A stretch of DNA of 64,000 nt from Planctomycetaceae bacterium (lineage in GTDB: Bacteria > Planctomycetota > Phycisphaerae > UBA1845 > UTPLA1): NCBI GenBank assembly GCA_011525745.1, contig WYBU01000066.1, positions 62,001 to 126,000 of the forward strand, in the 5' to 3' direction. Of the stretch, positions 2,450 through 41,637 are shown piece after piece. Both the position numbers and the translations under genes were made by a program. Numbering within the stretch: the first letter of the stretch is position 1; every line of letters begins with the position of its first letter. A model generated the notes under the pieces. That model worked only from the letters and a program-made list of their open reading frames with translations. It was not told the origin of the DNA and made no database searches.

Positions 2450-3715
2450 TCAATGCCCCCTCATCGCCCGGCTCAGCGTAAAAATCGGCAACAGCAGCGC
2501 GATCACGATGCCGCCAACGAACACGCCCAGGAACATCACGATCGCCGGCTCCAGCATCGACGTCATCGTCTTGATGTCCGTCGCCAGCTCCTCCTCGCAA
2601 TGATCCGCCACGCGGTCCATCACCCCGCCGATCGTGCCGCCCCGCTCGCCGGCCTGCATCATCTTCACCACCGCCCGCGGCATGAGCGGGCTGGCGGCGA
2701 CCGATTCGGACAACTGCTTGCCCTGCTGAAGCTGGTCGTACACGTCGTTCCACAGCCGCGCATAGACGCCGTTGCCGACCGCCGAACCCGTCAGCTCGAC
2801 GCTCTCGAGCATCGACACGCCCGCCTGAATCAGCGTGCCCAGCGTGCGCAGGCTGCGGGCCAGATAGGTCTTGTGAAACAGCGGGCCGAACAGCGGCAGC
2901 TTCAGTTTGAACGCCTGTATCAGCGACCGCGCGGCCGCCCCGCGCAGATAGAAGAACAACCCCGCAATGACCGAAACCGCTCCGCCCAGCAAATACAGCC
3001 CGTATTGAGTCATGGAGCTGCTGAGCGACATCAGCCAGCGCGTCAGCCACGGAAGAAACTGTTCACGTCCGGCATAGACGGTCGCGAATCGCGGCAGCAC
3101 AAAAGCCATCAGAAAGATTACGACGCCGATGGCCAGCAGGAACATCACGATCGGATAGATCACCGCGCCCTTGATCTTGCGGGTCACTTCGGCCTGCCGC
3201 GTCATGAAGTCGGCGATGCGCCGCAACATCGGACCGAGCTGACCGCTGGCCTCCGACGCGCGGACCATGTTGACGAACAGCGGCGGAAAAGCCCGCGGAT
3301 GCCGCGCCAGCGCCGACGAAAAGGTCGAGCCGCCGTGCACGTCGGCGATAACGGCCTCGAGCACCCGCGCGAAGCCGGGCGAGAGCTTCGGATCGGTGCA
3401 CGTCTCGAGCGCCTCGCTCAGCGACACTCCCGTTTCGAGCATGACGGCAAGCTGTTGCGCAAAGCCGCGCACGTCACGCGGATCGAGCCGCGGCGCCGTC
3501 AGCGAGAACCCCCCGCTCGGCGCGCGACCGGGCAGCGACGGTTCGGGTGGAGTCATCGGCGCGGCGCGACGGCCGGCGCGGGCCACTTCGAGCGACACGA
3601 CGTACTTGCCCTCATTGCGCAGCAGCTTGGCGGCTTGGGCCGAGGTCGGCGCCGACACTTCGCCGGTCAACGACTGCCCGGCGCCGTCGCGGGCGGTGTA
3701 CGTAAATGTTGGCAT
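2450..3715 (-). CDS. pilC: Type IV pilus / type II secretion inner-membrane platform protein
   Basis: This 421-aa protein is a PilC/GspF platform protein, the polytopic membrane base on which pilin subunits are added or removed by the cytoplasmic ATPases. It begins MPTFTYTARDGAGQSLTGEV, typical for the family, and has two GspF repeats with the motifs QQLAVMLETGVSLSEALE and LRTLGTLIQAGVSMLESVEL. Three hydrophobic segments lie near residues 180-205, 230-250 and 390-415. The ATG at 3715 is preferred over an upstream in-frame start because it matches the family N-terminus and has GGGAGG about 7 bases upstream. It is the last gene of the pilus locus, separated from pilT by a 334-base repeat-bearing gap. 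Confidence 0.93.
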   Translation of the reverse strand: MPTFTYTARDGAGQSLTGEVSAPTSAQAAKLLRNEGKYVVSLEVARAGRRAAPMTPPEPSLPGRAPSGGFSLTAPRLDPRDVRGFAQQLAVMLETGVSLSEALETCTDPKLSPGFARVLEAVIADVHGGSTFSSALARHPRAFPPLFVNMVRASEASGQLGPMLRRIADFMTRQAEVTRKIKGAVIYPIVMFLLAIGVVIFLMAFVLPRFATVYAGREQFLPWLTRWLMSLSSSMTQYGLYLLGGAVSVIAGLFFYLRGAAARSLIQAFKLKLPLFGPLFHKTYLARSLRTLGTLIQAGVSMLESVELTGSAVGNGVYARLWNDVYDQLQQGKQLSESVAASPLMPRAVVKMMQAGERGGTIGGVMDRVADHCEEELATDIKTMTSMLEPAIVMFLGVFVGGIVIALLLPIFTLSRAMRGH

Positions 3716-4049
3716 CGAAGCGGTTCCTCCCGATTGTCGGCGACCGAGGGCAACGCAGCGTCTCCCGCCGCTCCCGCACGGTTGCAAATCCGTCCAGCCC
3801 CGCAAACCCCCGCGCACGCCTGATCCGAACCGCGACTGGCGCCCTTAAACCGAACCGCGACCGTCAGGGAGCGACGGAGTACGCCCCGATACCGCCGCAC
3901 GCCCCATGCCGCGCGCACCGCGCCAATGCTTTCCGCGCTGCATGGCATCCTCTTTGTCAACGCTCCTCGCCGCTCGCTCACGGTCGCGGTTCGGTTCAGG
4001 CTGTGGTGGACCGCTCGGGCGCCGCGCGCACCATACCCTCCCTCGCGAA
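3716..4049. other. Gap between pilT and pilC holding an inverted repeat pair
   Basis: No gene is supported. One GAACCGCGACCG-type repeat lies at 3822-3842, a second at 3850-3874, and an inverted copy at 3970-3998. The second and third copies can pair over about 25 bases (AACCGAACCGCGACCGT against its complement), enclosing about 95 bases. In the pilT-to-pilC message this could form a long hairpin that separates expression of the two genes. Confidence 0.55.
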
Positions 4050-5414
4050 TTATTCATGCCGCGGCAGCATCAGCCGGTCGAAGCGGTCGACCTGTGCCGC
4101 GGCCAGCCGCGCCACGGCCGGATCGAGCTGGCCCGATTTCGCCCGGTTCGCCAGCGACTGCTCGAGCGTGATCATGCCCGAGTTGCGCCCCGTTTCGATG
4201 ATGCCGTGTATCAGGTGCGTCTCGTTGTCGCGGATGGCGCGACGAACGGCGTCCGTCGCAAACAGCAGTTCCGCGGCGGGCACGCGCCCGCGACCGTCCT
4301 TCGTCGGCAGCAGCACCTGGCACATGATCGCGCGAAGCGACGCGGCCACCTGCGTGCGGACGTGCTGTTGCTGTGCCGCGGGGAACACGTCGATGATCCG
4401 CGCCAGCGCCTGCACCGCCCCATTGGTGTGCAGACTGGCCAGTACCAGGTGGCCGGTCTCGGCGGCCGTCAGCGCCGTGGCAATCGTTTCCAGATCGCGC
4501 ATCTCGCCGATGAGAATCACGTCCGGCCGCTGGCGCACCACGTGCCGCAGCGCACTGGCGAAGTTGGGACTGTCGATGCCGATCTCGCGCTGCTCGATAA
4601 CGGCCAACCCGCGCGGAAACTCGAACTCGACCGGGTCTTCCAGCGTGATGATGTGACAGGCGCGCGTCTCGTTGAGCTGATTGATCAGCGCCGCCAGCGT
4701 CGTGCTCTTGCCGTGACCCGCGCCGCCCGTCACCAGCACCAACCCGTTGGGGTAGCCGGCCAGCCGCGCGGCATCTTCGGGCAATCCCAGGTCCGCCAGT
4801 TGCGGCACGTCACTGGGGATCGCGCGGATGGCAACGGCGGCCTCCTGGCTCTGTACGTGCGCGTTGACGCGGAACCGCCCCATGCCGGGCAAGCGCAGCG
4901 CGAAGTCGACGTCGCAGACCGTCTCGAACTTCTGCTTTTGCGCTTCGGTGAAGACGACTGAAAGCCAGTTGCGAATGTCGGCCTCGGACAAATCGCCCCA
5001 CTCCGACGGCGCCCAGTGTCCCGCGACGTTGAACGTCGGCGGCCAGCCCGCCACGAAAAGCAGATCGCTCGCGCGGCGCACGACCATGTCTCGCAGAAAG
5101 CGCGTCAGCGGCGCGCCGGCCCACGCCGGCATGTGGTCGCCGTACGCGGTGGTCGCCGTTACACCGGCTTTCGACTCGCCCCGCGCCAGGCGCGCCGGCG
5201 GCGCGACCGCCGGCGCCGTTCCGGCCGTTGTCACAGGACCGGATGCCGGGCGCGCTTCGACCACCGGCGCAGGACCCTGCGGCGCAGCAGGCGCAAGCGC
5301 TGCCGGCTGTGCCGGGACCCCGGCGCCTTCGGCGCTCGGTTTGGGCGGCGGCGTAACCGATCGGGACAGGCGGACCGGCGGTTTGATGCGCGATGAATCA
5401 GGCGGCGCAGACAC
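4050..5414 (-). CDS. pilT: PilT-type pilus retraction ATPase with long Pro/Ala-rich N-terminus
   Basis: This 454-aa protein is a hexameric PilT-family motor predicted to drive pilus disassembly. Visible are an atypical Walker A GGAGHGKSTT near residue 230, the acidic segment ITLEDPVEFEF, Walker B DVILIGEMRDLET and the His-box GHLVLASLHTNG. AVRRAIRDNE near the C-terminus resembles the AIRNLIRE retraction motif. About 95 Pro/Ala-rich residues precede the PilT core, making it longer than the usual 350 residues. The GTG at 5414 is chosen because GAGGAGG lies 6 bases upstream. It overlaps the end of pilB by 17 bases, so the two motors are probably translationally coupled. A second PilT lies at 39998-41161. 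Confidence 0.9.
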   Translation of the reverse strand: MSAPPDSSRIKPPVRLSRSVTPPPKPSAEGAGVPAQPAALAPAAPQGPAPVVEARPASGPVTTAGTAPAVAPPARLARGESKAGVTATTAYGDHMPAWAGAPLTRFLRDMVVRRASDLLFVAGWPPTFNVAGHWAPSEWGDLSEADIRNWLSVVFTEAQKQKFETVCDVDFALRLPGMGRFRVNAHVQSQEAAVAIRAIPSDVPQLADLGLPEDAARLAGYPNGLVLVTGGAGHGKSTTLAALINQLNETRACHIITLEDPVEFEFPRGLAVIEQREIGIDSPNFASALRHVVRQRPDVILIGEMRDLETIATALTAAETGHLVLASLHTNGAVQALARIIDVFPAAQQQHVRTQVAASLRAIMCQVLLPTKDGRGRVPAAELLFATDAVRRAIRDNETHLIHGIIETGRNSGMITLEQSLANRAKSGQLDPAVARLAAAQVDRFDRLMLPRHE

Positions 5415-7263
5415 GTAAGACCTCCTCAATCGTGGTGATTCCGCCGCGGACCTTGGCCAGTCCGTCCTCGTACAGGCTCGTCATGCGCGCCTCACGGGCC
5501 AGGCGGCGCAGATCCTGGAGCGGTCTGCGGTCGGTGATGGCGTCCCGAACGGCGTCGTTCGGGACGAACAACTCGTAGATGCCGATGCGGCCGGTAAACC
5601 CGGACTCGTGACACGCGGCGCAACCCTCGCCTCGATACACCTGTTCCAGCGAACCGCCCATGCGTTCGATCGCATGCTTCAAATGCGGCGGCGGCTCGGC
5701 GGCGACTTTGCACTTGGGACATATCTTCCGCACCAGCCGCTGCGCCAGCACGCCGACCACCGAGGCGCTGATCAGATACGGCTCGACGCCCATGTGATAC
5801 AGGCGCGTCACGGCCGACGGAGCATCGTTGGTGTGAAGCGTCGAAAACACGAGATGCCCGGTCAGCGCGGCCTGAATGGCGGTGCGGGCGGTCTCTTCGT
5901 CACGAACCTCGCCGATCATCAGCACGTCGGGGTCCTGCCGCAGCAGCGAGCGCAACACGGTCGGAAAGCTCAGGCCGATCTTTTCGTTGACCTGGAACTG
6001 ATTGATGCCGTGCAGGTTGAACTCGATCGGGTCTTCGACCGTGCATATGTTGACCTGCGGCGAATCCAGCGCCGAAAGCACGGCGTACAACGTCGTGCTC
6101 TTACCGCTGCCGGTCGGTCCGGTGACGAGGAAGACGCCGTGCGGCATTTCAATAAGCTGTCGGAACTGCTTGAGCATCTCGACCGAAAAGCCCAGCTTCT
6201 CCATGCTCATCCGCACGCGCGAATTGTCGATGATGCGGATGACGACCTTCTCGCCGTACCTGTTCGGCAACGTTGAGACGCGCAGGTCGATCGGGCGCCC
6301 TTCCATCAGCACGTGAATGCTGCCGTCTTGCGGCAGGCGCCGCTCGGCGATGTCGAGGCCGGCCATGATCTTGATGCGCGACGTGATCGGCGCCTGAAGC
6401 GGATGGGGCGGATTCAGCTTCTCGCGCAGCACGCCGTCGACCCGCAGTCGCACGCGCAGCCGTCCGTCGTCCGGCTCGATGTGAATGTCGCTCGCCCCCT
6501 CGCGCACCGCCGTGTAGAGGATGTAGTTGACCAGCTTGATGACCGGCGAGTCGCCCGCCATCCCCTCCAGCTTTGTGATGTCCTCGGCCTGCGTTTCGAG
6601 AAGCTGAAACGTGTCGGCGTTGACGTCCTCAATGATGTCATCAATGACGAAGACGTTGGCGGCCGACACGTGCTGGCCGAGCATCGCCTGAATGTCCGAG
6701 TGCGACGCTGCGACCACCACGACCTGGCAGCTTGTGCGCCGCGCGACGTCCTCGATCAGAAAGACGTTGGACGGCTCCGACATCGCCAGCGTCAGCACGC
6801 CGTCGACGCGGAACAGCGGCAGAACGCCGCATTTCTCGAGAGAATCGCGCGGCAGCAGGTCGACGATCTTCGCGTCGGCCAGCTTGGGCGTGAGCTTGGC
6901 GTAGGGAATGTCGTACGCCTCGGCCAGCGCCTCGACGAGCTGATCCTCCGTCACCAATTCCGCCTCGAGCAGGACTTCGCCCAGCAACTGGTGCCGGCCG
7001 GTGGCGTCCTGATTCTTCAGCGCCTGTTCGAGCTGCTCGGCCGTGATCAGGCCGCGCGCGACGAGAATCTGCCCCAGTTGCCGGCGGATGCGCGGCGGAC
7101 CGACGCCGGCCGGTGTCGGCAAGGCGACCGCCGGCGCGCCGGTGGCGATGTCGTAATTGGACGGCGGCGCCGCGCCGATGAGCGGATCGATCAGCGCGGC
7201 CGCGGCGGCATCGAGCGGCGCGGGGGAACGGGGCGGCGGAGTCAGGACGTCGGATCGGCTCAC
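5398..7263 (-). CDS. pilB: PilB/GspE-type assembly ATPase with MshEN domain
   Basis: This 621-aa protein is the extension motor that powers pilin polymerisation. An N-terminal MshEN-type region has tandem halves (RRQLGQILVARGLITAEQLE and LLGEVLLEAELVTEDQLVEA); this fold binds c-di-GMP in characterised homologues. The ATPase core has Walker A GPTGSGKSTT, Walker B DVLMIGEVRDEET, the His box LTGHLVFSTLHTND and a tetracysteine zinc site (CPKC ... CAAC). Translation starts at a GTG that shares GTGA with the stop of the upstream STAS gene, and its own end overlaps pilT. The HD-GYP and STAS genes just upstream suggest local second-messenger control (inference). Confidence 0.95.
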   Translation of the reverse strand: MSRSDVLTPPPRSPAPLDAAAAALIDPLIGAAPPSNYDIATGAPAVALPTPAGVGPPRIRRQLGQILVARGLITAEQLEQALKNQDATGRHQLLGEVLLEAELVTEDQLVEALAEAYDIPYAKLTPKLADAKIVDLLPRDSLEKCGVLPLFRVDGVLTLAMSEPSNVFLIEDVARRTSCQVVVVAASHSDIQAMLGQHVSAANVFVIDDIIEDVNADTFQLLETQAEDITKLEGMAGDSPVIKLVNYILYTAVREGASDIHIEPDDGRLRVRLRVDGVLREKLNPPHPLQAPITSRIKIMAGLDIAERRLPQDGSIHVLMEGRPIDLRVSTLPNRYGEKVVIRIIDNSRVRMSMEKLGFSVEMLKQFRQLIEMPHGVFLVTGPTGSGKSTTLYAVLSALDSPQVNICTVEDPIEFNLHGINQFQVNEKIGLSFPTVLRSLLRQDPDVLMIGEVRDEETARTAIQAALTGHLVFSTLHTNDAPSAVTRLYHMGVEPYLISASVVGVLAQRLVRKICPKCKVAAEPPPHLKHAIERMGGSLEQVYRGEGCAACHESGFTGRIGIYELFVPNDAVRDAITDRRPLQDLRRLAREARMTSLYEDGLAKVRGGITTIEEVLRVCAA

Positions 7264-7595
7264 GTGCGACTCCTGATGGCGGCCTCAACGTCCTCGTAGA
7301 CGTCGAACTGCCGATTGAGGCGCGTCAGCTCGAGGATCGTGCGGCCCACGGCGTCGAGGCTGCACAGGCGCAACGAACCGCCGCGCGTGCGGCACTCGCG
7401 CGACAGTTCGGTCAGCGATTCAAGTCCGCCACTGTCGAAACCGCTGATCTCCGCACAGTCGATCGTCAGGTCCGGTCCGCCCTCCTCCAGACACTGCCGC
7501 GTCTGCTCACGAAACAGCGCCACGTCATCCCCGACCAGATCGCCCTTGGGCGACAGCACGGTCAACGCGCCGTACTCGGTTCTCTTGAACTTCAT
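7260..7595 (-). CDS. STAS-domain protein (anti-anti-sigma-like)
   Basis: This 111-aa single STAS domain resembles SpoIIAA-type anti-sigma-factor antagonists. The core shows LTIDCAEISGFDSGGLE, where the serine in DSGG is at the position phosphorylated in SpoIIAA-like proteins. Family members usually switch partner proteins by serine phosphorylation; no cognate anti-sigma kinase is visible in the window. The ATG at 7595 has GGGGGA upstream and gives a compact domain; a longer reading adds unrelated residues. The stop overlaps the pilB GTG by four bases, so expression is tied to the pilus motor. Its target is unknown. Confidence 0.82.
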   Translation of the reverse strand: MKFKRTEYGALTVLSPKGDLVGDDVALFREQTRQCLEEGGPDLTIDCAEISGFDSGGLESLTELSRECRTRGGSLRLCSLDAVGRTILELTRLNRQFDVYEDVEAAIRSRT

Positions 7596-7647
7596 CCGAT
7601 TCCCCCGTGAGACCGTCGGCGGCGGCAGCGCCCAAGCCGTTCGACGT

Positions 7648-9477
7648 TCAATGCAACTGTCGGCGTTGCAGGCGCTGCCATCCCTTGACGACCGCGCCCA
7701 GCGATTGCGGACTGACCGATCCGACGCTCTCATGCCCGCCGAGTTCCCGGACAGCGTCCGCCCGCGCGCCTCCACCCGCCTCGGAACCCGGCGCGCCGTT
7801 CAGTTCCGCCAGCAGCGTTTTGGGATCCATCTCCAGGAACTTCTCCGCCAGCTCGGGATCGAACTGCGTTCCGGCGCAGCGCCGCACTTCCGCCAGCGCC
7901 AGGTCGATCGGCAGCGCCGATCGATACGTGCGGTTCGTCGTCATCGCGTCAAAACAATCCGCCAGGCAGATGATCCGGCCCAGCAGCGGAATATCCTTTC
8001 CCGCCAGCCGGTGCGGATACCCGCGGCCGTCCATGCGCTCGTGGTGGTACAACACGCCCGGCAGCAGGTCCTGCACTTGCCGGATCTGCGACAGAATCCG
8101 CGCGCCGATCTCCGGATGCTTCCGCAGAATCCGAAACTCTTCCTCCGTCAGCTTGCCGGGCTTGCACAAAATGGCGTCGGGTATGCCGATTTTCCCCACG
8201 TCGTGCAGCAGCCCCGCCAGATACACGCGATGGCACTCCGCCGGCTCAAATCCGGCCGCCTGCGCCAGTCGCCGGCTCATCGCCGCGACGCGCTGCGAAT
8301 GGCCGCACGTGTAGGGATCCTTGGCGTCAATGCTGCTGATCAGCGCGTGCAGCAGACCCATCAGCAGATCGGCCAGCTCGTCGTAAAGATGCTGGCTCTC
8401 AAGAAAAGATGTCACGCGGTCGGCCAGCGCGCGCAGGAACTTCACTTCAATGGAGCTGTAATCGCCCCCGTCGGTGCGGTTCAGCGCGATCATCGCGCCC
8501 AGCCGGCGGCCGTCCCGATCGAGCGGCAGCGCGACGATGTGATCCAGCCAGTCGGCCGCCCAGGAAAACTCGGGCAGCTCATCCGCGTTGTTTCGCAGGA
8601 CGTAGCTCGGCGCAGCGCCCTCGAGCGGCAGACTGCCGACGCCGACGCCCATGGTCTCCGCCAGTCGCCGCAGCGTCGCCGGATCTTCCGGCGCTTGTCC
8701 GACGCAAACGCACCGCGGCGCCCGAACCTCCCGGGCGGGCGCGGCAAAGCCGCCCGATGCCGGCTCGACGTGCTGAACGAAGACGATGCCGGCGGCCTTG
8801 CAGACGGTCAGCATCTCGCGGCCGAGGCGCTGAAGCATGTCGTGCGGCGCGTCGTCGAGCGACAGCATCCCCCCCACGCTGTAGACGAGATTCAGCTCCT
8901 CGTACGTGTCTCCGAGATTGCGAGTGAACGACTCGATCTGCCGCGCGTTCTCCTCCGATTCCCGCGCTTGCTGAACCATGAACTGAAGCATCGCACCCCA
9001 CTGCGTCGCCCAGTCCGCGCCGTACGACGGCAGCACAGCCGCCGCCTGAACGATCGCCTGAGCGTCCAGCCGCGCCCGGTCGCAGAATCGCTGGAAATCC
9101 TCGTCCGGTTCGCCCTGTCGCCAGGCGGCCGTGACGACGCCGACGATGCGCTTGCGCTGAAGGATGGGCAGCGCCGCCAGTCCGAGGAACGATCCCCACG
9201 TCGGAGGCGCCGGTGACGCCTCGCGCGCCAGCGCGCCGCGCACGGCGCGACGAATTTCGGATCGAACGAGTCCGGAATGAACCAGCAGCCGCGTCCACAC
9301 GCGCGGTCCCTGCCGGTCGTGCCACACCAGCCGCCCGCGCGCGTTCCAGAAGGCCAGCCAGACCCCCGCGCCGCGCCAATGGACCATCAATCGGCGGGCG
9401 GACGACTCGCCGATCGGTGCGATCGCGACCGACGGCAGACGCATGCGTTGGGCGGCGTGTGTGTTCGCGTCAGACAC
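7648..9477 (-). CDS. HD-GYP domain protein with sensory N-terminus (predicted c-di-GMP phosphodiesterase)
   Basis: This 609-aa cytoplasmic protein has an N-terminal sensory region, probably one or two GAF-like folds over residues 1-370, and a C-terminal HD-GYP domain. The catalytic signatures are intact: GHSQRV, LLHDVGKIGIPD, KHPEIGARIL and HHERMDGRGYP. HD-GYP enzymes hydrolyse c-di-GMP to pGpG or GMP with a bi- or trinuclear metal centre. A GTG start with GGAGG upstream overlaps the response regulator stop by 8 bases. Because it sits between the response regulator and a PilB with a c-di-GMP-binding type domain, it probably tunes pilus activity; that link is inferred from position. Confidence 0.92.
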   Translation of the reverse strand: MSDANTHAAQRMRLPSVAIAPIGESSARRLMVHWRGAGVWLAFWNARGRLVWHDRQGPRVWTRLLVHSGLVRSEIRRAVRGALAREASPAPPTWGSFLGLAALPILQRKRIVGVVTAAWRQGEPDEDFQRFCDRARLDAQAIVQAAAVLPSYGADWATQWGAMLQFMVQQARESEENARQIESFTRNLGDTYEELNLVYSVGGMLSLDDAPHDMLQRLGREMLTVCKAAGIVFVQHVEPASGGFAAPAREVRAPRCVCVGQAPEDPATLRRLAETMGVGVGSLPLEGAAPSYVLRNNADELPEFSWAADWLDHIVALPLDRDGRRLGAMIALNRTDGGDYSSIEVKFLRALADRVTSFLESQHLYDELADLLMGLLHALISSIDAKDPYTCGHSQRVAAMSRRLAQAAGFEPAECHRVYLAGLLHDVGKIGIPDAILCKPGKLTEEEFRILRKHPEIGARILSQIRQVQDLLPGVLYHHERMDGRGYPHRLAGKDIPLLGRIICLADCFDAMTTNRTYRSALPIDLALAEVRRCAGTQFDPELAEKFLEMDPKTLLAELNGAPGSEAGGGARADAVRELGGHESVGSVSPQSLGAVVKGWQRLQRRQLH

Positions 9478-11652: not shown

Positions 11653-12986
11653 GGCGCGTTGCCCTCCTCGAATGAGGGCGCGCCCTCCGTCGGCGAAGCG
11701 GCGTGCTGCGGCGGCGGTGTGAGCTTCTCAGATCGCGCCGTCAGACGGTCCAGCAGCGCCCGCGCCAGTTCACACCGCGGATCACGCACCAGCGCTTGCG
11801 CGTAAGCCTCCGACGCCTGCTGATCGAGCCCCGCCGCTTCGCGCGCCCGCCCCAGCAGACACAAACTGGTCGGATCGTTTCGATCCAGCGTCGCGGCGCG
11901 TTTGGCGGCATCGGCGGCTCGATCGAGTTCGTTGTCGCGCAGCCAGATCAGCGCGGCAACCAGATGGGTCGCAGCATGATGTCCCGCAAGGCGAACGGCG
12001 TTCTCGGCCGCCTCCGACGCCGCGGACCCGTCGTTCTGATCAGACGCGACGCGCGCCAGCAGCAGCCAGGCCTGCGCATCGTCGGGGTCGCGCCCGATCA
12101 GGTCGGCCAGGCAGCGGCGGGCTTCGTTGAGATTGGCGAGCTGGTAATGACATCGGGCGAGTATCAGGCCGACGGCCGCGGACGAAACCGTGACACAGCG
12201 CGCGTCACCGCCCGGCTGATTCCTCTCCTTGGCAGCCGTTGCGCCCGACTTCACCATCGCGTGATATAGCGGCGCCAGCACACCGACGGCTTCGACATCG
12301 CGCCCGGCCTCAGCCAGCGCCAGGCCCAGCGCGGCCTGAATCGCGCGATCATTGTCGGCAGCGCGCGCGGCTTGTCGCATGCGCTCGGCGGCGGCGTCGC
12401 TCAGACCCAATTCGCTGTGAATCTGCGCCGACAGGAAGCGCAACCGTGCATCGTCGTCGAAATCGGGCAGGCGCGACTCAATCAGCGCCAGCGCCTCCGG
12501 CGCGCGGTTCATCGCCATCAGCGCTTCGGCCGCGGCGGCGACGTAGTCGGCCTCGGCCGGCCGTAGTCCCGCGGCGCGCGTGTAACAGCTCAACGCCGTC
12601 GACCAGTCATCGCAGCGCTGTGCGACGATGCCCGCCACGTAAGCGGCCTCGGCATGATCGGGCTGAATCCGCGCGGCATGTTCGAGCGCCTGCCGCGCGT
12701 CCGGGATGCGGTTCTGTTCCAGGCGAATCCGCGCCAGCAGAATGCAGGCATCCGCGTTGTCGGGATCGAGACTCAGCGCCTCCTCAAGCTCGCGCAGCGA
12801 TTCGTTAAGATGCTGCGCGTCGTACTGCGCCTGCGCCAACTGAAGCTTGACGCGCGCTCGTACCTTGTTCCAGCGGACATGCGCTTCCTCCGACGCCTTC
12901 TGCGTCTTCGACAAAATCCCCGTGCCTTGTGCGCATCCGCATGCGAACGTCAAGCCCGCCAGGCACGTCACGATCCATTGCCTCAT
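11649..12986 (-). CDS. TPR-repeat lipoprotein in the pilus operon
   Basis: This 445-aa protein starts with a signal sequence that ends in a lipobox-like LTFAC/CGC, suggesting a lipid-anchored envelope protein. The rest is tetratricopeptide repeats, for example LSLDPDNADACILLARI and AARIQPDHAEAAYVAGI. TPR lipoproteins of the PilF/PilW type help the secretin assemble in the outer membrane. This protein is longer than PilF (about 250 aa), but its ATGA overlaps with both the secretin gene upstream and the kinase gene downstream support a pilotin-like or scaffold role (inference). Confidence 0.8.
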   Translation of the reverse strand: MRQWIVTCLAGLTFACGCAQGTGILSKTQKASEEAHVRWNKVRARVKLQLAQAQYDAQHLNESLRELEEALSLDPDNADACILLARIRLEQNRIPDARQALEHAARIQPDHAEAAYVAGIVAQRCDDWSTALSCYTRAAGLRPAEADYVAAAAEALMAMNRAPEALALIESRLPDFDDDARLRFLSAQIHSELGLSDAAAERMRQAARAADNDRAIQAALGLALAEAGRDVEAVGVLAPLYHAMVKSGATAAKERNQPGGDARCVTVSSAAVGLILARCHYQLANLNEARRCLADLIGRDPDDAQAWLLLARVASDQNDGSAASEAAENAVRLAGHHAATHLVAALIWLRDNELDRAADAAKRAATLDRNDPTSLCLLGRAREAAGLDQQASEAYAQALVRDPRCELARALLDRLTARSEKLTPPPQHAASPTEGAPSFEEGNAP

Positions 12987-15013
12987 GACGCACCTCCCGG
13001 CGCTGCGTCGCCCTTCGAATCCGCATCGCCCGATTCACCCTGCGGCGCGGTCGCCCCGTCGGGAGCGGCAGGTTCATCCGTCTTCGCGCCCCCGCCGGAC
13101 GCCGGCGTCGGCCTTCCGAATGGCGCAAGCTGCAAACCCTGATCGGCCGCGATCATCCGTTGGATGTGCAGGCGGACCGCCGAGGCGTCCTCATCCCAGA
13201 TGCGTCGTCGGCGCAATTCGTCAATCAACTCCTGCGCGGGCAGAAAACGCGGCGCGTTGTGGACCGCCATTTGCGCGTCCCACAACGCCCGATTCGTGCG
13301 GCCGGCCGCCAGGTGTTCCAGCGCCCAGCGATAGTGCGCCTGCGCCAGTCGTTCGCGGCTCCAGTTCTGCAGCCCCCGCCGCAGTCCGATGCGATAGCGC
13401 TCTACCTGCTGGGCCAGCAGCGCCCCCTCGCGCTCCTCCGGCTCGCCTTTCACAACCCGCACCGTCAGCAGAATGATCACTTCCTCACGCACCGTGTTGT
13501 CGTTCGTCGTGCGGAACAGCGCGCCGGCGATCGGAATGTTCCCCAGCCCCGGAACCTGGCCGCGCGTCGCCGTCGTCACTTCGCGAAACAGGCCGCCGAT
13601 CAGAATCGTGTGGCCGTCGCGCAACAGCACGTTGGTCGTCACCTCGGTCGTCTGCTCGAACGGCAGATTCGCTGCGCTGAGACCGCCGGTGGAGTCCTTG
13701 GGGTGGATCTCCATGCGGATGTGTTCGTCGTCGAGGATGTACGGCCGGAAAACGAGCTGTGTGCCGGTTTCAAGGAACTCGACCGTCTGAATCGCGGCCG
13801 TCTCGGTGACCGTCGTCGTGAAGTAGCCGTCCCGCCGGCCGACGATCACTTCGCCCCGCTGCTTGTTCAGCGCCAGCACCTTGGGATTGGCGATCACCGA
13901 CGTGTCGGCTACCTGCTCCAGCGCGCGAAGGAACACACCCACGTTGTTCTTGATGATGCCGAACGTCAATCCGCCGTTGGGCACGGCGCCGCGTACGTCC
14001 GTGCGCACCGTGAACGTCGTATTCTCCAGTTCGTTCGCCGGCGTCGCGCCCGTGACGATCGCCTGCGCCGCCGGACTCGTGCCGCCCACTTCGGCAAAAT
14101 CCACGCCGCCCAGCGTCGTGAAGTCGATGCCCAGCGCCGTGTCCTCGTTGAGCGTGGCGCGCAGAATCGTCGCCTCGATCAGCACCTGCCGAGGCCGTAC
14201 GTCCAGCTCCACCAGCGCCGTTGCGATCCGCTCGATCGCCGCCGAATCGTCAGTCACGACCAGCGAGTCTTCCGACGACAGATCGTTCCCCCCGCCGTCG
14301 CCCCCCGACTTGCCGCCGCCGGACTCAAGCCCCTTTCCCGCCGCCGGCGTCGTGGCGATCTTGCCCGCGTCCGTCAGCAGCGGCGCGATCAGCGTCTTCG
14401 CGTCGACGGCCGTGAGGTACTTGAGCCGGAACACCCGCGACTCGACGCGCCGCTCGGCCTTCCTGATTTCCCCCAGCTCTTCCTGCGTATGAACGAAAAT
14501 GAAACCGTCGCGCTCCACGAAGCCGAGATTGTTCATGCGCAGCACGGCGTCGAGCGCTTCCTCGAACGTCGCGTCGTACAGATTGGCCGTCACCGTACCG
14601 GTGACCGCCTTGGACGCCAGAATGTTCCGCCGGCTCTCCTCGCTCAGCATGCGCAGCACGTCAGCGATGGGCATCTCGGCCACGTGCATCTCCACGCGAC
14701 GGGCCGTATTCACCTTGACGGTGGCGTTGCGCTTCGACTTCGCCGCCGATCGCGCACCGGTCGCTTCGTCCGCGCCCGAAGCGCCGAACCGACGCATCAC
14801 CTGATCGAGCTGCTCGAATGGATCGCGCGGCGGGGCCGACGTGGTAGGCGCTGCATCGACGCTCGAGACCGCCCCGTCGAGGTCCGCACTCGGCGCGCCG
14901 GACGCGTCGACCGCCGGCCCCGTTTCGGACCTGGCGTCGTCCGCGGACACAGCGCCTCCCGCGCCCGCAAAGATCAGCAGCGCTGTCATCGATGCGACCA
15001 GATGCTTGCTCAC
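12983..15013 (-). CDS. pilQ: Secretin (PilQ/GspD family outer-membrane channel)
   Basis: This 676-aa secretin forms the outer-membrane pore for the pilus. After a signal peptide (VSKHLVASMTALLIFAGAG) comes an STN/N0-like domain (ADVLRMLSEESRRNILASKA), an N1/N3-like domain (VFRLKYLTAVDAKTLI) with a Gly-rich insertion, and the secretin core with VPGLGNIPIAGALFR. An unusual C-terminal tail of about 120 residues follows; its first part looks TPR-like (AQAHYRWALEHLAAGRTNRA) and its end is Gly/Ala-rich. The GTG at 15013 is chosen because it gives a proper signal peptide; the Shine-Dalgarno is weak and an ATG at 14989 is possible. The stop overlaps the TPR lipoprotein start. Confidence 0.92.
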   Translation of the reverse strand: MSKHLVASMTALLIFAGAGGAVSADDARSETGPAVDASGAPSADLDGAVSSVDAAPTTSAPPRDPFEQLDQVMRRFGASGADEATGARSAAKSKRNATVKVNTARRVEMHVAEMPIADVLRMLSEESRRNILASKAVTGTVTANLYDATFEEALDAVLRMNNLGFVERDGFIFVHTQEELGEIRKAERRVESRVFRLKYLTAVDAKTLIAPLLTDAGKIATTPAAGKGLESGGGKSGGDGGGNDLSSEDSLVVTDDSAAIERIATALVELDVRPRQVLIEATILRATLNEDTALGIDFTTLGGVDFAEVGGTSPAAQAIVTGATPANELENTTFTVRTDVRGAVPNGGLTFGIIKNNVGVFLRALEQVADTSVIANPKVLALNKQRGEVIVGRRDGYFTTTVTETAAIQTVEFLETGTQLVFRPYILDDEHIRMEIHPKDSTGGLSAANLPFEQTTEVTTNVLLRDGHTILIGGLFREVTTATRGQVPGLGNIPIAGALFRTTNDNTVREEVIILLTVRVVKGEPEEREGALLAQQVERYRIGLRRGLQNWSRERLAQAHYRWALEHLAAGRTNRALWDAQMAVHNAPRFLPAQELIDELRRRRIWDEDASAVRLHIQRMIAADQGLQLAPFGRPTPASGGGAKTDEPAAPDGATAPQGESGDADSKGDAAPGGAS

Positions 15014-15193
15014 GTTGTTTCCCGACTTCCGTAAAGCCGTGACGGTGCGTTCCGACGCGACGCCGTGCGCCCCGGTCTGTCCCCGTCGGCGCATCCTTAC
15101 GTCGTCGTCCACCAACCCCGGCGCGCAGCAAGAATGCAACGCCGCGCGACGACGTCAGGCGGACGTGTCCGGCGATACAGGCCGGACCCATGT

Positions 15194-16705: not shown

Positions 16706-17368
16706 CTACTTGCTCCCCCCCGTTTGCCGCAGCACGCGGCAGACCACCTCGAACTGCCGCACTTTCAGATCGCCGAACGTCGCATCGCGCACATAACTCG
16801 TTTGCACGTCGCGAAACAGCGGCGACCCGCCCAGCTTCGCCGTGAACGCGCTGATGTGCAGATTGCTCGGCGCAGCCCCGATCAGCCGCAACGTCGGCAA
16901 CGTCGACTCGTCCTCTTCCGCCGCTTCCGTAACGGCGCCCGCGCCGGTCCCGGCGCCGGACCCCTTCGCCGCCCCAGGCGACGCCGTCGGCGCGCGCGAA
17001 TCGACGACCGCGTTCACCGACACATCCGTCAGCACCGCGCCGTCGGGAAGCAGCGCACTGATTTCCGCCAGCACCACCACCCACGAAGCCGCGTCATCCA
17101 GCGACTCCAGGATCGACATCCGGCTCGAGAGCATCTGATGCTCCACGGTCTGCGCGTCCAGGAATTGCTTGCGCCCCTCGACCAGCGCCCGCTGCTCGCG
17201 CGCCGCCGCCAGATCGGCCGCCGCGCGAACCTCGCTTATATGGTGCGACCACGACCACACGCACATCATCACCACCATCGCCAGTCCCCACACCGCCTGC
17301 GCGCGGCAGGTGCGCCGGCGGGCGGCGGCCGCGTGATAGGCCGGCGGGATAAAGTCAATCTCGTTCAT
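16706..17368 (-). CDS. pilN: PilN-like pilus alignment protein
   Basis: This 220-aa protein begins MNEIDFIPPAYH, matching the short cytoplasmic INLLP-like peptide by which PilN docks into PilM. A membrane helix (residues about 24-44) and a periplasmic coiled coil plus alpha/beta domain follow (LAEISALLPDGAVLTDVSV). A Gly/Ala/Glu-rich insertion lies in the middle (about residues 128-152). The ATG shares ATGA with the pilM stop, confirming both start and coupling. Confidence 0.85.
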   Translation of the reverse strand: MNEIDFIPPAYHAAAARRRTCRAQAVWGLAMVVMMCVWSWSHHISEVRAAADLAAAREQRALVEGRKQFLDAQTVEHQMLSSRMSILESLDDAASWVVVLAEISALLPDGAVLTDVSVNAVVDSRAPTASPGAAKGSGAGTGAGAVTEAAEEDESTLPTLRLIGAAPSNLHISAFTAKLGGSPLFRDVQTSYVRDATFGDLKVRQFEVVCRVLRQTGGSK

Positions 17369-18522
17369 GCGGCTCCCTGCACGACGGTGCGCACGGCCCC
17401 GTTGCGGCCGACCCACTTCGAGCCGCGCAGCGCCAGCCCCACCGCGACGCCCCAGCCCGGCCGCAGCGTCCACGCACGGACCGCGTTCGTCGCCGCCGCC
17501 ATCCCCATCCCGCGCATCGGATCGCCGACAAGACAGGGAATGTCAGTAATCTGGCCCATCAAACCGCACAGCGACGGCTCATGCGCCTCCCCGCCGACCA
17601 GCGTCAGGCTCGCGGGACGCTGACCGCGGAACGTGACCGCGAAATAGCGCAGGCACAGTTGCACCTCCCGCGCCAATTGTTCGATCGGCGCGCGAACCGC
17701 GTCGGCCACCTGCTCGTGCACCGAATCGGGCGTCGACGGCGCAGCGTGTTCCTCCGAGTCGCTCTTGCGACGCGACCGGCCCGCCGCCTCGATCGCCGTC
17801 AGGCGCACCTCGGCCGCCTGCTCGGCCGACGTCCCCATCCGCTGCGCGACCGCCTCGTTGAACCGCGCGCCGCCCACGTCGATCACCTTGACGAACGCCA
17901 CTTCAGGCCCGCGCGTGATGACCAGGCTCGATCCGCTGTAGCCCACGTCCAGAAAGACGTTCACCGCCGCCGCATCCTCCTCGCGCCGCAGGAATCTCGC
18001 GAAGCTCCGCGCCATCGCACACGGCGCCGCATCGATCGCCACCGGCTCGAGCTGAAGCGATTCCAGCCGCCGGATCAGCCCCCCCACGAGCGAATCTCCG
18101 GCGCCGAAGACGATCAGTTCGTCCTTCAGCTCGTTGCCCTGTCGGACGTCTCCGGCCACGACGAACTGAAATCTTCCGCGATCGTCGGGAAAGCTGAACC
18201 GGTCCAGCGCCTCGAACTCCAGCGCTGCCGCTTTCTCCTCCCACGGCATGCGCGGCAGACGGATACTCTTGATCTGAAATTGCGCGGGCTGCAGACACGT
18301 CACCACGCGCCGCCCCTGAAACCCGCATGTCTTCAACGCCGTAGCCACCGCGTCGTCAACGAATTGGTCGCGAGCCGATCCGCTCAGCCCGGCCGAAACC
18401 GGCCGATAGGCCATCCCCGCCACAACCGGCCGATCGCCGCCGTGATCGAGCTGAACCATTTTCACGCCCGACGTGCCGACGTCGAGCGCGATGGGTCCAA
18501 GCGTGGACCGTGCGCGAATCAT
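17365..18522 (-). CDS. pilM: PilM, actin-like cytoplasmic pilus ATPase
   Basis: This 385-aa protein has an FtsA/actin-like fold with the phosphate-binding segment IALDVGTSGVKMVQL at the start, a second phosphate motif VFLDVGYSGSSLVI and a C-terminal adenosine-binding segment SLTLVGGEAHEPSL. PilM binds the PilN N-terminus and links the inner-membrane complex to the cytoplasmic motors. The ATG at 18522 has GGAG 7 bases upstream. It leads a pilM-N-O-P-Q gene order. Confidence 0.92.
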   Translation of the reverse strand: MIRARSTLGPIALDVGTSGVKMVQLDHGGDRPVVAGMAYRPVSAGLSGSARDQFVDDAVATALKTCGFQGRRVVTCLQPAQFQIKSIRLPRMPWEEKAAALEFEALDRFSFPDDRGRFQFVVAGDVRQGNELKDELIVFGAGDSLVGGLIRRLESLQLEPVAIDAAPCAMARSFARFLRREEDAAAVNVFLDVGYSGSSLVITRGPEVAFVKVIDVGGARFNEAVAQRMGTSAEQAAEVRLTAIEAAGRSRRKSDSEEHAAPSTPDSVHEQVADAVRAPIEQLAREVQLCLRYFAVTFRGQRPASLTLVGGEAHEPSLCGLMGQITDIPCLVGDPMRGMGMAAATNAVRAWTLRPGWGVAVGLALRGSKWVGRNGAVRTVVQGAA

Positions 18523-38135: not shown

Positions 38136-39854
38136 CTACATCGCATCCGCCCCCGCGACGCGCTCGACTTCGTCAACGGTCGTGTGGCCCTCGATCACCT
38201 TGTTCAGGCCGCTGCCGCGCAGCGTGCGGAACATCCACTCCCCCGACGCGGCGCGAATCTCGCGTATCGTCGGCTTCGTCAGAATCACGTCGCGCAACTG
38301 CGGCGTGAACGTCAGCATCTCGAACAACGCCAGCCGGCCGTGATAGCCGGTGTTCATGCACTGCGGACAACCGACGGCCGCGTAAAACTTCTCGATCTGG
38401 CGCCCCTCCAGCCCCAGCGCCACGATCGATCGCGCGTCGGGCCGGAACGGTCGCTTGCACTTGGTGCACAGACGCCGCACCAGCCGCTGCGAAATCGTCA
38501 TCGACACGGCGTTGGCGCACAGGAACGGCTCGACCCCCAGGTCCAGCAGCCGGAAGATCGTGCTGACGCTGTCGCGCGCGTGCACCGTCGTCAGCACCAG
38601 ATGGCCGGTCATCGCCGCCTGCATCGCCATCTGGGCCGTCTCCTGATCGCGAATCTCGCCGACCAGGATGACGTCCGGGTCCTGCCGCATGACCGTCGCC
38701 AGCACCGTCGCGAACGTCAGCTCGTGCTTGGGATCGATCGATATCTGCGTCGTGTTTTCCAGCCGGTACTCGACCGGATCCTCGATCGTCACGATATTGC
38801 GCGTGTTCGCGTCGATCGTCTTCAGCGCCGTGTAAAGCGTCGTCGTCTTTCCGCTGCCGGTCGGACCGGCCACGATTACCATGCCCGCGTCCTGCGCGCA
38901 AATGCGGCGGATTTCGGCCACCGCTGCCGGCTCCATGCCCAGTTCGTCGAAACGGTCCGGAACGGTCGCCTTATCCAGAAAGCGCAGCGCCAGCTTCTGT
39001 CCGTGCGTACTCGGCGTCAGCGACACGCGCATGTCGACCCGCCGTTCGGGCAGCTCGATCGCAAAGCTGCCTTCCTGCACGATCGCCTTCTTGGCGATGT
39101 CGGCCTGGCACAGCACCTTGACGACGTTCAGCACCGTCGCGCCCATCTTGGGACTGATCTCGCCGACCGAATGCAACAGCCCGTCGATGCGGAACCGGAG
39201 CTGATATGCCTCGGCCTTCGGCTCGATGTGCAGATCGGTCGCCCGCGAGCGGAACGCCGCGTACAGCAACTGCCGAAAGGCCATCAGCGCTTCGGCCGGC
39301 TTCGCCTGCTTTTGCGCGTCGATGCGCAGCGGACGCGATTGCCGATCGAGCAATCCCAGTTCGTCGATGCTCCGCGGACAACCGGGCACCGGCGGCGCGC
39401 TGATGCAGGCCTGCATCAGCGGCGCAAGCTGCCGCGTCAGCGGTCCCGTGCCGATCACCTTCGTCGCCAGCGCCGTCACGGCCGGATGGGCCTGCTTCGT
39501 TACCGTCCTGGTCTGAGCCTCGTCGAGAACGATGTCGGCGGTCGGCAGTGAGGGAGCGTCCTGATCGACCTCGTCCGGCAACAGTCGCATGGTGGTCTTC
39601 CCGATGCGGACCACGTCGCCGAACGAGAGAATCGCCTCGCTGACCTTGTTGGGGCCGATGTAGGTGCCGTTGTGCGAGGAAAGGTCCTTCAGAACAACGA
39701 TGCCGTCCTTGAGCGTGAACGTGCAGTGACGCCGCGAGGCCAGCGCGTCCTCGATGACGACGTCGTTGCCCTGCATGCGCCCGACGCTTAGCGGCGCGTC
39801 ACCCAGCGTGAATCGCTGCTTCTGACCGCCGGCGGTAACTTCGATGATCGGCAT
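38136..39854 (-). CDS. FHA-domain / GspE-PilB type ATPase fusion
   Basis: This 572-aa protein joins an N-terminal FHA domain (residues 1-100) to a secretion ATPase core. The FHA phosphothreonine-binding residues are all present: VGRMQGNDV, ASRRHC, SSHNGT. The ATPase has Walker A GPTGSGKTTT, Walker B DVILVGEIRDQET, TGHLVLTTVHARDS, and a zinc tetracysteine (CTKC ... CPQC). The usual MshEN/N1 domain of PilB is replaced by FHA. It may be recruited by a phosphorylated partner made by a Ser/Thr kinase located elsewhere (inference). A second PilT gene lies 143 bases upstream on the same strand, so these two motors probably form a unit. Confidence 0.92.
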   Translation of the reverse strand: MPIIEVTAGGQKQRFTLGDAPLSVGRMQGNDVVIEDALASRRHCTFTLKDGIVVLKDLSSHNGTYIGPNKVSEAILSFGDVVRIGKTTMRLLPDEVDQDAPSLPTADIVLDEAQTRTVTKQAHPAVTALATKVIGTGPLTRQLAPLMQACISAPPVPGCPRSIDELGLLDRQSRPLRIDAQKQAKPAEALMAFRQLLYAAFRSRATDLHIEPKAEAYQLRFRIDGLLHSVGEISPKMGATVLNVVKVLCQADIAKKAIVQEGSFAIELPERRVDMRVSLTPSTHGQKLALRFLDKATVPDRFDELGMEPAAVAEIRRICAQDAGMVIVAGPTGSGKTTTLYTALKTIDANTRNIVTIEDPVEYRLENTTQISIDPKHELTFATVLATVMRQDPDVILVGEIRDQETAQMAMQAAMTGHLVLTTVHARDSVSTIFRLLDLGVEPFLCANAVSMTISQRLVRRLCTKCKRPFRPDARSIVALGLEGRQIEKFYAAVGCPQCMNTGYHGRLALFEMLTFTPQLRDVILTKPTIREIRAASGEWMFRTLRGSGLNKVIEGHTTVDEVERVAGADAM

Positions 39855-39997: not shown

Positions 39998-41161
39998 TCA
40001 TCCGAGAATGCCCGTCTGCCCGCTGCGAATGCCCTTGAGCATCATCTTCAGCTCGTCCGGATTGGGCGCCACGTCGTAGGCCGTCTTGACATCGATCCAT
40101 TCGCGCTGCACGAGATCATACAGCGCCGTGTTGTAGTCCTGCATGCCCTCCGACTTGCCGGTCTTCAGCACGGCATTGATGTCGAAGTCGCGCCCTTCGG
40201 CGATCAGCTTCCGGATCGGCGCGTTTGCGATCATGATCTCGCACACCGGCACGCGCGGCACGTCGTCCATCAGCGACGGCAACAGTTTCTGGCAGATGAT
40301 GGCGCGCAGATTGAACACCAGCGACTGCCGGATGAGGTTGCGGGCCTCTTCCGGGAACAGATCGAGAATGCGCGTGATCGTCTGCGACGAGCTGGAGGCG
40401 TGAATCGTGCCGAACACCAGGTGGCCCGTCTCGGCCGCGTGCATCGCCGCCTCAAACGTCTCGCGGTCGCGCATTTCGCCGATCAGCACCACGTCGGGGT
40501 CTTCGCGCATCAGGTACTTCAGCGCCGCGTGGAAATCCGGCACGTCGATCCCGATCTCGCGCTGATTGATCACCGCCTTCTTGTCGTGGTACAGATATTC
40601 GATCGGATCCTCAATCGTCACGATATGACACGCCCGCGAGGTGTTGATCTGGTCGATCATTGCCGCGATGGTCGTGCTCTTGCCCGCACCCGTGATGCCC
40701 GCCAGCAGCACCAGCCCCTGATGATATTCGGCGATCTTGCTCAGCGACGGCGGCAGGTGCAGCTCATCGTAGCCCTTGATTTCGGCCGTCACGCGCCGCG
40801 CCGCCACCGACGTGTGCCCGCGTTGCCGGAAGACGTTCACACGAAACCGGTCCGACCCCTCCAGATCGTGCGCGAAGTCGATCGCGCCGCGCTCGAAGTA
40901 ATACTGCTTCTGCTTCGGCGTCAGAATCTCGAACACCATCTCCTCGATCTGAGCGTTCGATAGCGGCGGTTCCTGGGCGCGCTTCAGATCGCCCTTCAGG
41001 CGGAAAACCGGCGGCTGACCGGCCTTCAGATGCAGATCGCTCGACGCCAGTTTGACGCACGCCTTGAACCACTTGTTGATCGCTGGGTTTCGGCTGGCCT
41101 CGGGCTTCGTCGACTCGTGAACGTCAATCGGATTGCTGTCCTCTACCACATGCGCGCTCAT
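39998..41161 (-). CDS. pilT: Second PilT-type retraction ATPase
   Basis: This 387-aa motor has the PilT N-terminal PAS-like part (SSDLHLKAGQPPVFRLKGD), Walker A GITGAGKSTT, Walker B DVVLIGEMRDRETF, the His box TGHLVFGTIHASSS, and APIRKLIAEG resembling the AIRNLIRE motif. Unlike the 4050 copy it has normal length and a typical Walker A. The ATG at 41161 has GAAGGAA 6 bases upstream. It lies just upstream of the FHA-ATPase gene. Having two PilT motors is common (PilT/PilU-like), but this one is away from the main operon. Confidence 0.93.
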   Translation of the reverse strand: MSAHVVEDSNPIDVHESTKPEASRNPAINKWFKACVKLASSDLHLKAGQPPVFRLKGDLKRAQEPPLSNAQIEEMVFEILTPKQKQYYFERGAIDFAHDLEGSDRFRVNVFRQRGHTSVAARRVTAEIKGYDELHLPPSLSKIAEYHQGLVLLAGITGAGKSTTIAAMIDQINTSRACHIVTIEDPIEYLYHDKKAVINQREIGIDVPDFHAALKYLMREDPDVVLIGEMRDRETFEAAMHAAETGHLVFGTIHASSSSQTITRILDLFPEEARNLIRQSLVFNLRAIICQKLLPSLMDDVPRVPVCEIMIANAPIRKLIAEGRDFDINAVLKTGKSEGMQDYNTALYDLVQREWIDVKTAYDVAPNPDELKMMLKGIRSGQTGILG

Positions 41162-41637
41162 GTAATTTCCTTCTCCGTCACCCGGGTGCCGGCCGTTGCA
41201 GGTCAGACTTCGTATCGCGGCCGTCGAACTTCGGCAGCCGTGCGCCGCCGCGACGGCCACCATATTGCGGACCCGTCATTTTACGGCAACCGCCGCGCGA
41301 TTCAAGCAGCCCGCCGACGCCCACCGCAACGAAATGGAAACATGCCGCCGCCGGCTGTGATTCCTTCTCCCTCTCAGGGAGAGGGTTGGGACGTGGGTGT
41401 ACCCCTTCGCAGCACCCCCCGGCTGTGTCGTTCGCGTTGCACGGGCTTGTAGCGCGCACAACGCTGTATCCGATCCGATCCGCGAAGCCCCCGCCTGCGC
41501 GAGGGCCGGCGGCAGCGAGCGGGATCGATTCGCTCAATCCATCGCCCGCGCCGGTGCTGCGTAACGGCCGCCCCGGCCGTGCGCATTCACGTCGCGCTTC
41601 GCATGAACCAAAGATTGGAAACGATCGCCGCCCAAGC
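41162..41637. other. Intergenic stretch with hairpin and palindrome
   Basis: No gene is supported. It holds a 10-bp stem with 3-base loop at 41363-41385 (CCTTCTCCCT/AGGGAGAGGG, one wobble) and a GCACGGGCTTGTAGC palindrome copy at 41436-41456. Confidence 0.55.
41363..41385. terminator. Strong GC hairpin between genes
   Basis: A 10-pair stem with a CTC loop lies between the 42081-41638 gene and pilT2, both on the minus strand. It may end or process the upstream message. There is no T tract on the minus-strand side. Confidence 0.35.

Follow-up and report, generated by a model that had tools for sequence, protein, structure and literature searches.

An FHA domain with a conserved phosphothreonine pocket in place of the N-domain on a PilB/GspE-branch motor of planctomycetes

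A motor ATPase of the PilB/GspE branch was found in which the usual N-domain is replaced by an N-terminal FHA domain with a complete phosphothreonine pocket, an arrangement that suggests that a protein kinase controls the motor. The gene, which we call FHA-PilB, lies at 38136..39854 on the minus strand (stop codon included) of the planctomycete DNA that was analysed, a stretch of 64,000 nucleotides referred to here as the window. It was defined from the ORF list, Pfam matches and an alignment of orthologues, and encodes a protein of 572 amino acids. SBP_bac_10 (PF07596), present in the genome and absent from all 14 controls, suggests a planctomycete origin. Phosphothreonine-gated recruitment of this motor is plausible because the pocket has been kept among orthologues, the N-domain has been replaced, and kinases are present in the genome.

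The FHA domain occupies approximately residues 1-93 (39576..39854, minus strand), as delimited by Pfam, conservation and AlphaFold2. The Pfam match itself (PF00498, 56.1 bits against a cut-off of 20.7) covers residues 23-85 (39600-39788, minus strand), and PF16697 matches as well. Next comes a tether of about residues 96-135 (39450..39569, minus strand), which is predicted to be disordered (pLDDT <50) and whose sequence and length are not conserved across orthologues. The motor domain, T2SSE (PF00437, 378 bits against a cut-off of 24.9), was identified by Pfam and Foldseek at residues 183-565 (38160..39308, minus strand). In an AlphaFold2 model built on 20 orthologues, with a mean pLDDT of 80.5, the FHA domain is modelled confidently (pLDDT 87-95 over most blocks), as is most of the motor. 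The Pfam search gave no match to MshEN (PF05157) or T2SSE_N in FHA-PilB. The earlier note had described this protein as carrying FHA where the N-domain usually lies, and that description is right, since all four of the other PilB-type motors in the genome have MshEN before T2SSE.

The motor core contains Walker A (GPTGSGKTTT, residues 330-339, 38838..38867, minus strand), Walker B, the catalytic Glu, the His box and a zinc tetracysteine (C463, C466, C496 and C499; 38358..38468, minus strand) that is invariant in alignment A1. All but one of the 65 orthologues keep the catalytic motifs, Walker A among them, intact. These domains and motifs are shared with PilB and GspE, and the top Foldseek match of the motor model is PilB 5tsh (TMt 0.89, 40% identity); among proteins of solved structure, the motor is closest in sequence to Geobacter PilB and the FHA domain to GarA and OdhI. 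FHA-PilB differs from PilB and GspE in that it has FHA and a disordered tether and lacks N1D/MshEN (GSPII), a domain that belongs to the definition of the PilB equivalog. It also stays under the NCBIfam cut-offs of both equivalogs, with 404.9 bits for TIGR02538 (PilB, cut-off 675.65) and 428.3 bits for TIGR02533 (GspE, cut-off 630.25); the score for TIGR03819 (CpaF) is 55.6 bits, where the cut-off is 373. Because it scores between GspE and PilB and under both cut-offs, we regard it as a PilB/GspE-branch motor that is a certified member of neither family.

The full set of phosphothreonine-binding residues that the earlier note had read from the sequence (GR, SRRH and SxNG) was found, as GR at residues 25-26, SRRH at 40-43 and SHNG at 60-63. 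The FHA domain is present in all 65 orthologues, of which 25 came from the window's order and 40 were fetched from the class. Pocket residues G25, R26, S40, R41, H43, N62 and G63 are invariant in all of them and S60 is kept in 64, so that the loss of FHA residues in orthologues, which the note had named as grounds for rejecting its idea, did not occur. Outside the class, two full-length copies show the same motif. Some matches in the class started only at residue ~165-195, suggesting loss of the FHA domain, but all such proteins among the 40 fetched have an intact FHA; the matches started late because the local alignments broke off at the variable tether. From its residues, the FHA domain of FHA-PilB would bind phosphothreonine. 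The single orthologue with altered catalytic motifs, L040 (G111:C2:278734-280455), lies on a long branch and is the sole FHA-PilB seen in its genome. In this protein the Walker A Lys is replaced by Thr and the catalytic Glu is lost while the FHA domain is intact, and it may therefore represent either a natural separation of an independently acting FHA domain from motor activity or a gene that is decaying.

Among 114 genomes of the window's order, full-length FHA-PilB was found in 17/17 genomes of the window's own family, f1 (one copy being cut at a contig end) and in 8 genomes of family f7; it was not seen in the remaining families of the order. Orthologue-level matches (E <= 2e-105) occurred in 88 of 298 genomes of the class, about a third. 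Outside the class, in a set of 392 phylum genomes, family f83 (G423 and G582) was the only one with the complete architecture, and G582 has one full FHA-PilB plus a second, contig-cut copy (L214, L215). A possible relative in another genome, G630, was rejected, as it has a different N-terminus without FHA. In a tree for which FHA and tether were removed from the alignment so that only the motor core remained, all 30 sampled FHA motors fall on one side of a branch with support of 100/98. Because this motor-only tree groups the FHA motors, the fusion most likely arose once, and the pocket has been retained. PilB-like motors of other classes, L213 (G630) and L218 (G469), have different N-termini, one GYF_2-like by eye and one with hydrophobic segments; as these differ, swapping of N-domains on PilB may recur in the phylum.

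A canonical cluster lies at ~2.4-18.5 kb of the window and encodes PilC (2450-3817), PilT (4050-5429), a PilB paralogue with MshEN that served as the comparison motor (5398..7263, minus strand), an HD-domain protein, a histidine kinase, a TPR protein, a secretin (12983..15139, minus strand) and a PilM-type protein (17365-18522). The earlier note had proposed a search of the genome for PilM/PilC paralogues and Hanks-type kinases. There are three two-domain PilC-type and three PilM-type genes versus five PilB-type motors, and no pilC or pilM lies beside FHA-PilB. The genome gives 32 Pkinase matches, of which some are fragments belonging to a single protein; this corresponds to ~30 Hanks-type kinases. 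A regex scan of neighbourhoods for Hanks-type kinase motifs found none beside FHA-PilB, and a kinase encoded next to the motor was rejected as a candidate. A second FHA motor of the genome, L007 on contig C53, is an FHA-CpaF of 650 amino acids with Gly for the pocket Ser.

In model systems PilM provides a socket for the docking of PilB, with a contact through N1D that has been inferred from GspE-GspL structures, and the N1D of PilB binds c-di-GMP in some species (PMC11656802). We lean towards the view that in FHA-PilB this domain (N1D/MshEN), with its docking and c-di-GMP functions, has given way to a tethered phosphothreonine-binding FHA domain that, via a Hanks-type kinase, recruits or withholds the motor. 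The kinase would phosphorylate a threonine on a partner, which could be the membrane platform, a scaffold protein or the motor's own tether, and the FHA domain on its flexible tether would bind the marked threonine as its ligand. Because of this binding the motor ring would be brought to the platform that it drives, or held off it, making recruitment the regulated step. The FHA input would take the place of the PilM-socket and N1D c-di-GMP input of the model systems. Against kinase-gated recruitment count the negative regex scan, the shortage of PilC genes relative to PilB-type motors and their distance from FHA-PilB, and the G111 protein that keeps its FHA domain but loses motor residues.

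The surroundings of the gene offer another reading. A PilT-family ATPase (39998..41263, minus strand; TIGR01420 407.4 bits, cut-off 319.1) is encoded 143 bp upstream of FHA-PilB on the same strand, and in f1 this PilT precedes the motor gene in 12 of 13 readable contexts, two of which have intervening ORFs or a wider spacing of the two genes. In six f1 genomes (G100, G102, G103, G105, G106 and G110, adjacency in G100 being judged by coordinates) FHA-PilB stands directly before an anchored T2SSE homologue, and five f1 neighbourhoods read FHA-PilB, the T2SSE homologue with hydrophobic N-terminal segments, a CvpA-like membrane protein and an HtrA-like ORF. The P-loop lysine is missing from all 23 sampled copies of the anchored homologue, and therefore ATP hydrolysis by it is not expected. 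The CvpA-like protein (PF02674, 30.2 bits, cut-off 29.3) is modelled with a beta-rich part and, at the N-terminus, four helices of high confidence, and had no PDB match at E<=0.001 in the structure search. In the order's other families the same PilT subfamily often directly precedes the anchored homologue and CvpA-like gene without an FHA motor; this order-wide cluster was seen at L088 and L121-L140. The PilT tree, in which the outgroup rows have long branches, unites the subfamily with support of 99/97, and the FHA-linked PilTs fall inside it. The PilT that the earlier note had called the motor's own is thus truly linked to it in the window's family, but belongs to a subfamily that is found elsewhere without FHA-PilB. 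It could be, then, that the FHA motor powers this PilT / anchored homologue / CvpA-like cluster and not a type IV pilus, the probably inactive homologue serving as membrane dock instead of PilM or GspL. We consider this rather unlikely, given that the anchored homologue is present in 252/298 class genomes, the majority without FHA-PilB, while G115, G185 and G244 have FHA-PilB but no anchored homologue at E<=1e-60. The window genome has its anchored homologue and CvpA-like gene on C46 (L088:3712-7373), a different contig from that of FHA-PilB. Strict dependence of FHA-PilB on the anchored homologue is ruled out by the distribution of the two; the FHA motor adjoins an older cluster in f1 yet stands alone in families outside the order, which argues that it is independent of that cluster. 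A speculative extension, which we think improbable, would unite the FHA motor, the linked PilT, the lysine-lacking anchored homologue and the CvpA-like protein in an envelope machine of an undescribed kind, where an active motor gated by a kinase has an inactive, anchored one as its partner and this pairing replaces docking through PilM/PilC.

Phosphorylation could also act within the motor protein. GarA and OdhI, both among the best-scoring solved FHA domains, share only the FHA domain with FHA-PilB, having no motor domain, and they provide a model for phosphorylation of a tether; their phosphosite lies N-terminal to FHA. By analogy, a kinase would phosphorylate a tether Thr and the FHA domain would fold back on it, switching the motor without an outside partner. 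An [SGA]ET motif that recalls the GarA/OdhI phosphosite stands just after FHA in 7/8 f7 proteins (tethers L033-L039), and many f1 tethers have a Thr within a TTLAxR-like motif. These motifs vary by family, however, with no tether Thr conserved across the class, and acidic, Thr-containing tethers can yield such motifs by chance, so we give such a switch little weight. Least probable of all, and in our view very much so, is a purely structural or protein-protein role of the FHA domain in which phosphorylation is uninvolved. FHA-like folds without phosphothreonine binding do exist, YscD being one, and the match to PF16697 is in keeping with such a role, but a pocket that is invariant in 65/65 proteins over large divergence would be unexpected without ligand binding.

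FHA domains have been described on other pilus motors. In the 'class III' FHA-CpaF proteins, which are mostly betaproteobacterial, an N-terminal FHA is joined via a disordered region (PMC12019362), and Myxococcus KilF also has an N-terminal FHA on a pilus motor (PMC8460266). These proteins share with FHA-PilB an N-terminal FHA on a PilT/VirB11-like pilus motor. FHA-PilB is unlike FHA-CpaF in its PilB/GspE-type core and in that no Tad genes were seen beside it, and the genome has a separate FHA-CpaF. The earlier note's view that such control is unusual for pilus motors is right in part, as FHA-CpaF and FHA-KilF are published and an FHA-CpaF is encoded in the same genome. A search of the open literature for FHA with T2SSE, PilB, GspE or planctomycetes returned no account of a PilB/GspE-type motor that carries FHA. 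Control of PilB has been described via c-di-GMP (MshEN), PilZ and FimX; FHA goes unmentioned in a 2024 review of how PilB is controlled (PMC11656802). MshE-type PilB resembles FHA-PilB in having a signal-sensing N-domain on a pilus motor, but the folds of the two N-domains are unrelated and the signal of FHA-PilB is likely phosphothreonine, not c-di-GMP. Fha/TagH of the T6SS is an FHA protein of a secretion machine that is regulated by a Ser/Thr kinase (PMC3953482), and unlike FHA-PilB it is not a motor ATPase.

A PilB-branch motor with a phosphothreonine reader conserved in its lineage would connect the abundant Hanks-type kinases of this genome directly to a pilus-type motor. Where a genome has both MshEN-PilB and FHA-PilB, two signal inputs can be compared within one cell. 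At 5398-9477 of the window, the MshEN-type PilB adjoins an HD/GAF-domain protein, a possible c-di-GMP phosphodiesterase, so one and the same genome may combine c-di-GMP and phosphothreonine inputs to its motors.
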